Shown: in pieces, positions 54,525-56,115 of the stretch
How the letters are laid out: every line of letters starts with the position of its first letter
Numbering within the stretch: the stretch's first letter is position 1
Assembly (NCBI RefSeq): GCF_014642855.1
Contig: NZ_BMJB01000001.1
Span: 1,426,001 to 1,490,000, forward strand
Source of the DNA: Edaphobacter acidisoli
Lineage (GTDB): Bacteria > Acidobacteriota > Terriglobia > Terriglobales > Acidobacteriaceae
DNA: 64,000 bases
Direction of reading: 5' to 3'
Translations under genes and position numbers: made by a program
The notes under the pieces: model-generated
Database searches by the model: none
What the model was told of the DNA's origin: nothing
The model's input: the letters and a program-made list of their open reading frames with translations, nothing else

Positions 54525-55757
54525 TTAGGCCCCAACCAACACCTTGCCATACCGCTTCTCCACATACTCGTCCAGAATCACCTGAAACTCTTCGACAATC
54601 CGGTCGCCCTTCAGCGTCGTATACAGCTTCCCGTCCACATACACCGGAGCCTTCGGCTCCTCAAACGTCCCCGGCAGCGAGATCCCAATATTTGCGTGCT
54701 TCGACTCGCCCGGCCCATTCACCACACAGCCCATCACCGCCAGCTTCAGCTCCTCGACGCCCGGATAGATCTTCTTCCACTCCGGCATCTGCGCCACCAG
54801 ATACCCCTGAATCCGCTCCGCCAGCTCCTGAAAATACGTCGAAGTCGTCCGCCCACAACCCGGGCAGCTCGTCACCTGCGGCATAAAGCTGCGAATCCCC
54901 AGCGACTGCAAGATCTGCTGCCCGCACCGCACCTCCTCCGAGCGATCACCCCCCGGAGTAGGCGTCAGACTCACGCGAATCGTATCGCCAATCCCCTTCA
55001 GCAGAAGAGGTGACAAGCCGGCAGTCGAGGCAACAACGCCCTTCATGCCCATCCCAGCCTCGGTCAGCCCAAGATGCAGCGCATAGTCGCACCGCCCGGC
55101 CAGTTCGCCATACACGTCGATCAGGTCGCGCACACCCGAAACCTTCGCGCTCAAAATAATCTGATCGCGCCGCAGCCCATACCGCTCCGCAGCCGCCGCA
55201 TTATCCAGCGCCGAGACGACCATCGCCTCCATCATCACATCCCGCGCCGGCAGCGGCTCCGCCAGCTTCGAGTTGTCGTCCATCATCTTCGTCAACAGCG
55301 CCTGGTCCAGCGACCCCCAGTTCACCCCAATGCGCACCGGCTTCTGGTGCTTCACCGCAACCTCCACCATGGTGCGGAAGTTGTCATCATCCTTGCGCCC
55401 AATCGAGCAGTTGCCCGGATTGATCCTGTACTTCGCCAGCGCCTTCGCCGTCTCCGGATACTTCGTCAGCAGCAGATGCCCGTTGTAGTGAAAGTCGCCA
55501 ATAATCGGCGTCGTCCAACCCTTCTTCGCGATGCCCTCGACGATATAAGGCACAGCCTTAGCCGCGTCCTCGTTGTTTACCGTCACGCGCACCATCTCCG
55601 ACCCCGCACGAGCCAGCGCAGCAACCTGCTGCACCGTGGCTTCGACATCCGCCGTGTCGGTATTGGTCATCGACTGCACCACCACAGGTGCATCCGACCC
55701 CACATGCACCCCACCAATATTCACCGTTACTGCACGTCGACGCACGATTTCAGGCAT
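54525..55757 (-). CDS. ispG: HMBPP synthase (4-hydroxy-3-methylbut-2-enyl diphosphate synthase)
   Basis: A 4Fe-4S enzyme of the MEP isoprenoid pathway that converts methylerythritol cyclodiphosphate to HMBPP. The 410 residues begin [20 protein letters not shown] with [12 protein letters not shown]. The iron-sulfur ligands are Cys298 and Cys301 in [10 protein letters not shown] and Cys344 in [10 protein letters not shown], with Glu351 next to it. It is the short two-domain bacterial form. GGAG lies six bases before this ATG; the longer frame to 55805 is not supported. Confidence 0.97.
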
Positions 55758-55848
55758 AAAGTCTCCACCCTCAAGTTTACCATTCCGACACGTCCGCGCC
55801 CGCACGATAGACTAGTTACGGCAGTTGGTTTGATGTGCATCTGTTAAG

Positions 55849-55903
55849 GGCACGGCTTCAGCCGTGCCACTCAGAGATCAATGATCGAGGGGGCTTTAGC
55901 CCC
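55849..55903. repeat. Paired REP-like hairpins before the tRNA
   Basis: Two adjacent short hairpins: GGCACGGC-TTCA-GCCGTGCC at 55849-55868 and GGGGCT-TT-AGCCCC at 55890-55903, followed by TGAGGTACG. I recall this combination as an intergenic repeat in acidobacterial genomes. It lies about 26 bases before the tRNA gene. Confidence 0.6.
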
Positions 55904-55929: not shown

Positions 55930-56006
55930 GGCCCGGTAGCTCAGTTGCATAGAGCAGCGCACTCCTAACGCGAAGGTCGCAGGTTGGACTCCTGCCCGGG
56001 CCACCA
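55930..56006 (+). tRNA. tRNA-Arg(CCU), unusual elbow bases
   Basis: A 77-base cloverleaf with encoded CCA. The acceptor stem GGCCCGG/CCGGGCC, D stem GCTC/GAGC and T stem GCAGG/CCTGC are fully paired. The anticodon loop CTCCTAA gives CCU at 55964-55966, arginine for AGG. Two near-invariant bases are changed: position 19 is C (55948, normally G) and position 56 is G (55986, normally C, so the T loop reads TTGGACT). These bases pair with each other in the tRNA elbow, so the swap keeps a possible pair. The anticodon stem has A31-C39 and G27-A43 mismatches. It could be functional or decaying. Confidence 0.8.
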
Positions 56007-56027
56007 GCTTACTTATGTTTGAGTCGC

Positions 56028-56060
56028 GGTATCCGTCAGGACTCCTTGCCCGGGCCACCA
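56028..56060 (+). repeat. Copy of tRNA 3' end, first
   Basis: GGTATCCGTCAGGACTCCTT, then GCCCGGGCCACCA. It repeats the T-arm and acceptor 3' strand of the tRNA at 55930-56006, with one extra T. Its CCA ends 54 bases after that of the tRNA. It has no 5' tRNA half, so it cannot fold as a tRNA. Confidence 0.8.
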
Positions 56061-56083
56061 TTAGCCACAAATCTTCGCAGCTC

Positions 56084-56115
56084 GGTACCCGTCAGGACTC
56101 CTGCCCGGGCCACCA
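56084..56115 (+). repeat. Copy of tRNA 3' end, second
   Basis: GGTACCCGTCAGGACTCCT, then GCCCGGGCCACCA. Its last 21 bases are identical to the tRNA 3' end, including the GGACTCC with the unusual G. Its CCA ends 55 bases after that of the first copy, giving a tandem period of about 55 bases. Confidence 0.8.

Follow-up and report, generated by a model that had tools for sequence, protein, structure and literature searches.

Analysis of a 64,000-nucleotide stretch of the Edaphobacter acidisoli genome (hereafter the window) identified a gene that is most likely functional and encodes the single-copy tRNA-Arg(CCU) reading AGG, with the tertiary pair of its elbow inverted to C19-G56. The G19-C56 pair is regarded as all but invariant, and the ribosome and several tRNA-binding proteins and RNAs make use of its outward face. 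The sequence comparisons described here show an inversion that is real, conserved, and repeated, in a tRNA that probably works.

The gene was called tRNA-Arg(CCT) by ARAGORN and matched RF00005 from 55930 to 56003 with 56.5 bits, compared to a gathering score of 29 (Rfam). With a cloverleaf, a CCU anticodon, and a CCA end above the Rfam threshold, it has the features of an elongator tRNA, except that the conserved identities G19 and C56 are missing, making it a non-canonical variant at these positions. Numbering by position gave Watson-Crick pairs throughout the acceptor, D, and T stems and the usual tertiary partners U8-A14, G15-C48, G18-U55, and U54-A58. Misnumbered loops as the source of C19 and G56 were rejected, since these other tertiary partners fall in place. 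Position 19-56 is C-G rather than G-C, and can form a Watson-Crick pair. The arginine identity bases A20, C35, U36, and A73 are all present, following the rule given in PMC9976931. C19 and G56 had been reported by the initial annotation and were confirmed by ARAGORN, RF00005, and the numbering. The A31·C39 mismatch that it described is also real, but a second mismatch, G27·A43, had been missed; the anticodon stem consists of three pairs flanked by these two mismatches. Folding of the bare strand gave no full cloverleaf (z −1.34), and was weighed neither for nor against the gene. The divergent neighbor is ispG (GcpE). The coordinates of all features are listed in Table 1.

Table 1. Features of the tRNA-Arg(CCU) locus, in positions of the window.
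Feature	Position	Strand	Evidence
tRNA-Arg(CCU) gene, CCA encoded	55930..56006	+	ARAGORN, Rfam RF00005, position-by-position numbering
C19 (normally G19)	55948	+	position numbering
G56 (normally C56), partner of C19	55986	+	position numbering
Anticodon arm, anticodon CCU, with G27·A43 and A31·C39 mismatches at the stem ends	55957..55973	+	Rfam alignment, numbering
G27·A43 mismatch	55957/55973	+	numbering
A31·C39 mismatch	55961/55969	+	numbering
ispG (GcpE)	54525..55805	−	PF04551
TAGACT, perhaps the −10 element of the tRNA promoter in a displaced position	55808..55813	+	read by eye
Palindrome	55849..55868		
Palindrome	55890..55903		
Two repeats, each with a CCA-ending tRNA 3' end	56027..56115		
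Decayed tRNA 3' end (bases 57-77 of the 77-base tRNA, with one T inserted)	56039..56060	+	repeat comparison
Second tRNA 3'-end copy (21/21 bases)	56095..56115	+	repeat comparison

The genome of the strain (4.2 Mb, 7 contigs, 99.55% complete) contained 49 RF00005 matches, 48 of them above the cut-off, and ARAGORN applied to these places returned 48 distinct tRNAs with only one CCU anticodon. The arginine set comprised UCU, CCU, UCG, CCG, and ACG (ARAGORN), and the four isoacceptors other than CCU were unswapped. All other 47 distinct tRNAs had TTC at positions 54-56 (list read by eye), leaving tRNA-Arg(CCU) as the only one without C56. The initial annotation had raised the matter of another AGG-decoding tRNA in the genome; RF00005 and ARAGORN revealed no second tRNA-Arg(CCU) in this 99.55% complete assembly. 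AGG was used in 15 of 4380 codons of eight chosen ORFs of the window, in which AGA occurred 9 and CGC 85 times.

Within the genus, a full-length match to the tRNA was found in 57 of 62 genomes, and 46 of the 57, including that of the strain itself, were identical over the 76 bases compared. Three other genomes (G015, G017, and G037) held only parts of the gene, at contig ends or as a displaced copy, and two members with 74% and 83% completeness gave no match. C19 and G56 were kept in all 12 variants fetched (11 from the genus and one from genus g32), which differed from one another in T stem, acceptor pairs, and base 26; the stem changes were mostly compensated, as in the T stems of L082 and L086-L091. 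A compensated change was also seen at pair 28-42 of G327, a genome of genus g107. The 3' half was present in 60 of 62 genomes (47/47 among the better assemblies), with more than one copy in ten of them, and all 71 listed copies carried G56 under a pattern that allowed only G or C at this position. Conservation across the genus argues strongly for function. Combined with the absence of half-changed forms from the searched genomes (see below), it makes a chance origin of the swap very unlikely. In the 96% complete genome G017 only a displaced 3' half was seen (G017:C60, L095) and the whole gene was not found, possibly reflecting a real loss or an assembly gap.

A decaying pseudogene with two lucky changes would fit the two anticodon-stem mismatches, the low score of the gene (42nd of the 49 RF00005 matches), and the lack of a standard promoter in a consensus scan of the window. 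We nevertheless consider this highly improbable and rejected it on copy number and conservation, since the gene is neither truncated nor decaying beside an intact copy elsewhere, is nearly identical over the genus, maintains pairing elsewhere in the tRNA, shows compensated stem changes among its relatives, and has no second CCU tRNA to replace it. As for the promoter, the 70 bases upstream of the gene contain TACACT at 47 of 56 distinct loci (the own locus being counted among the 56), in 40 of the 47 at −14 to −17; in the own strain they lack it. A TAGACT lying farther upstream is a candidate displaced −10 element. Transcription in the own strain is plausible. Between ispG and the tRNA, where most relatives have TACACT, there are two palindromes, both situated between the tRNA gene and TAGACT.

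The spread of the inversion was assessed with patterns that required the D stem GCTC/GAGC (except for the 3'-half pattern); those accepting either state allowed only G or C at the positions in question. In the own family, tRNA-Arg(CCU) in either state was matched in 130 of 150 genomes, 13 of which were swapped (genera g1, g32, g106, g107, and g310) and 117 of which had G19/C56; none of the 130 was half-changed. The order of Brevundimonas gave a similar picture, with 116 of 150 genomes matching, 10 swapped, 106 unswapped, and again no half-changed tRNA-Arg(CCU) among the 116. In Brevundimonas the inverted pair sits on a different tRNA backbone. For the phylum Acidobacteriota, 352 of 396 genomes matched, and the swapped ones among the matches listed included five genomes of family f30 (G221, G267, G277, G379, and G550) and one of f19 (G435), the tRNAs of which have a different backbone and a fully paired anticodon stem. 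A narrower phylum pattern, which requires G52 and therefore missed swapped f30 genomes with C52, matched 28 of 396 genomes, which belonged to five of the 210 genera. When any tRNA with the GCTC/GAGC D stem was considered in 247 genomes of the phylum, the G19/G56 half-state did not occur and C19/C56 gave one raw match, which was taken as G18G19 with another loop spacing. Eight genomes reached via named loci yielded one match each, the swapped copy. Within genus g107, G327 has the swapped tRNA-Arg(CCU) and its congeners G769 and G790 the normal one, indicating that the state of 19-56 changed or was imported inside one genus, in what would be a recent switch or a transfer.

That no half states occurred in the genomes sampled fits an inverted pair with its geometry kept. 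A compensatory swap, as proposed in the initial annotation, is supported as the better reading over decay by the sole CCU copy, the conservation in the genus, and the absence of half states. Its expectation that such a swap should be very rare in a working tRNA needs correction, as the own genus and the sampled Brevundimonas normally carry the inverted pair, which in the samples examined is concentrated in arginine tRNAs.

This concentration emerged when named genomes were scanned for tRNAs of any kind carrying C19 and G56. The scan left out A31 to skip the own genus; it gave at least 119 stretches and is no census. Arginine tRNAs made up 112 of the 119 matches listed (CCU 101, CCG 6, and UCU 5), accompanied by Gly UCC (3), Ala CGC (1), Asn GUU (1), and Pro CGG (1); the remaining one, L142 (GCU), has GG at 18-19 and is no true swap. 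The bias of the inversion to arginine tRNAs, above all CCU, is real in this listed sample, in which 68 of the 101 CCU matches share one Caulobacterales-type anticodon-arm sequence. By record title, the arginine swaps among the matches listed came from Caulobacterales including Brevundimonas, Marinicaulis, Blastocatellia/Pyrinomonadaceae, Holophagaceae, cyanobacteria, Bacteroidetes, and one Oscillospiraceae MAG. Isolated occurrences in MAGs may reflect errors in binning; a Bordetella MAG (L175) carries the Brevundimonas-type swapped tRNA. Redundancy alone leaves the excess of CCU over other redundant C34 tRNAs unexplained.

The position of A20 next to 19 brings in the possibility of co-adaptation with an unusual arginyl-tRNA synthetase (ArgRS) reading A20, which we consider unlikely. 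A20 is the main arginine determinant for the E. coli ArgRS (PMC9976931) and is found in the listed swapped arginine tRNAs except L163; the ArgRS of Acidobacteriota is divergent from the Pfam model, and the swapped genomes score lower than most unswapped ones. The best Pfam match in family f1 gave 25.6-36.1 bits in four swapped genomes vs. 40.4-45.9 bits in three unswapped ones, and the corresponding values in f30 were 29.5-32.0 bits (three swapped) vs. 45.6 and 50.1 bits (two unswapped). Although the scores of these two families lean towards ArgRS type as a cause, it is disfavored by the unswapped genome G069, which also scores low (23.0 bits), and by swapped Brevundimonas, which has an ordinary ArgRS scoring like that of unswapped relatives. 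Furthermore, swapped f30 genomes were not grouped apart on the ArgRS tree (19 genomes compared, with some low tree supports), and the other four arginine isoacceptors of the own genome are unswapped. The ArgRS of the Acidobacteriota examined (G000:C1:1503181-1504419; L430, L432) scored approximately 20-50 bits per Pfam match, compared to more than 260 bits in alphaproteobacteria.

A staphylococcal tRNA-Gly serves cell-wall synthesis and offers a model for a specialized tRNA-Arg whose elbow would mark it out for a role other than ordinary translation. The altered elbow, the expected failure of the TruB consensus (see below), and the concentration in one isoacceptor would agree with such a role. 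We regard it as very unlikely, since this is the only CCU tRNA found in the own genome, AGG codons are used in ORFs of the window, and the 19-56 pair is inverted rather than abolished.

In congeners the gene serves as an attachment site, in G002 for a prophage. Five of them (G002, G027, G035, G040, and G057) carry, on the contig of the tRNA and 16-77 kb away from it, displaced 3' halves that begin at positions 27-29, and further displaced 3' halves of the genus lie on other contigs than the tRNA. Their start in the anticodon arm corresponds to the repeat geometry in the Islander catalogue of islands in tRNA genes (PMC4383910). Islander islands likewise consist of a regenerated tRNA and a displaced 3' fragment, with the repeat from the anticodon arm, but differ from the present locus in that the window keeps only short remnants and the element sits in congeners (PMC4383910). 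In congener G002 (L091), a tyrosine integrase (PF00589, 3.3e-23), a portal protein (PF04860), and a capsid protein (PF05065) are encoded between the tRNA and the displaced 3' half. This element (L091, 437-16563) spans approximately 16 kb with 16 ORFs of at least 120 aa, nine of which were translated and eight scanned in Pfam; no tail family was matched in these eight, which makes a satellite or a degraded prophage possible. The T stem is GGCAG/CTGCC in the intact tRNA of L091 and GCAGG/CCTGC in the displaced copy, with G56 in both. In the usual logic of tRNA-gene islands, an integrating island restores the gene and pushes its old end away as the displaced fragment. By this logic, the element would have replaced the T arm of the tRNA in G002 with a new one that also had G56. 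In G029 the order of the two alleles is opposite to that in L091, on two contigs.

Such exchanges could also have produced the inversion, an origin that we regard as possible but tentative. An integrating phage with the 3' half of tRNA-Arg(CCU) as its attachment site would have brought a T arm with G56, for which the host D loop compensated by C19, and a favored site would lead to recurrence. The genes and the different G56 T stems of L091 and the opposite allele order on separate contigs in G029 are consistent with this, as are the viral contigs: 11 carried a G56 3' half, which lacked a D arm in five of them and was part of a whole tRNA with C19 in the other six. The C56 version is, however, far commoner there (at least 120), and 43 of its 118 uncut copies had no recognizable whole tRNA. 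Elements with a mismatched T loop were not encountered: G56 was present in all 71 copies from the genus (under the pattern allowing G or C only). Likewise, no second copy of at least 17 identical bases was found at the 119 listed swapped loci of other bacteria, which at 2.7-8 kb each are too short to include the far end of a prophage. Slightly more doubtful is an extended form, in which the inversion would be repeated in tRNA-Arg(CCU) through phages repeatedly replacing its 3' half: G56 would force C19, after which only G56 elements could integrate without breaking the elbow, so that the tRNA and its phages would be locked together.

In the own strain, the region directly downstream of the tRNA contains two repeats of approximately 27 bases, spaced by 56 bases. 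The decayed 3' end in the first is probably an old attachment-site remnant, and the second copy can probably be read in the same way. Such remnants were present approximately 30-145 bases downstream in 7 of 56 distinct loci, including the own locus and one of genus g106. The initial annotation had described the swap correctly, and had missed both these remnants and the role of the gene as an attachment site in congeners.

Returning to a functional tRNA with a compensatory swap, C19-G56 would fill the same Watson-Crick slot as G19-C56, so that the tRNA can keep its L shape and the flat face of its elbow. The outer face of 19-56 has been reviewed as a flat stacking surface for many partners (PMC4810234), and in human mitochondrial tRNA-Ser(UGA) the change G19C abolished charging, which was restored by C19:G56 (PMC10412605). 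We infer that the switch passed via an unpaired intermediate, which may have been tolerable in the CCU isoacceptor as AGG is uncommon and tRNA-Arg(UCU) probably also reads it; the use of the gene by phages may have supplied the first change. Afterwards, C19 and G56 would have held each other through the divergence of the clade, including the exchange of T arms by phages. Expression, charging, and decoding of AGG by this tRNA would follow the same reading. A cost of the inversion should fall on enzymes reading base 56, such as TruB (psi55), the consensus of which (GUUYRANYC) has a pyrimidine at 56 (PMC7912444); the corresponding GUUGGACUC has G at this position and departs from it. This departure stands against the functional reading, together with the two anticodon-stem mismatches, the lack of a usual −10 motif in the 70 bases upstream and of a promoter in the consensus scan, the genome G017, in which no whole gene was found, the two less complete genus members with no match, and the excess of CCU that redundancy leaves unexplained.

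Compared with canonical bacterial tRNA-Arg(CCU), the present tRNA shares the anticodon, the loop YTCCTAA, A20, and the full cloverleaf, but differs in its inverted 19-56 pair and, in its own clade, in a non-Watson-Crick 31-39. Unswapped orthologues occur in other genera of the family (L096 and L097). The engineered human mitochondrial tRNA-Ser(UGA) has the same inverted C19:G56 pair and is charged by the mitochondrial SerRS, but is a laboratory mutant, mitochondrial, and neither natural nor an arginine tRNA (PMC10412605). Departures from G19/C56 are also described for tRNA-Pyl and metazoan mitochondrial tRNAs, in which the pair is lost, unlike the present tRNA, which keeps the pair with its bases reversed (PMC7609411). 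Searches of the open-licence PMC literature, based mostly on listings, brought up no report of a natural C19-G56 tRNA-Arg; a lone mention of C19-G56, as an A-site pair, was taken as the usual pair given in reverse order.

A natural, fixed, and repeated inversion constitutes a ready experiment on whether the elbow needs shape and pairing or the bases themselves. The inverted tRNA-Arg(CCU) can also serve to probe whether tRNA evolution can be driven by phage integration, and to test tRNA annotation and covariance models. Three cyanobacterial swapped tRNA-Arg(UCU) (L147, L174, and L206) were labeled tRNA-Pyl(CUA) by ARAGORN, an identity contradicted by their loop, CTTCTAA, which belongs to Arg(UCU).
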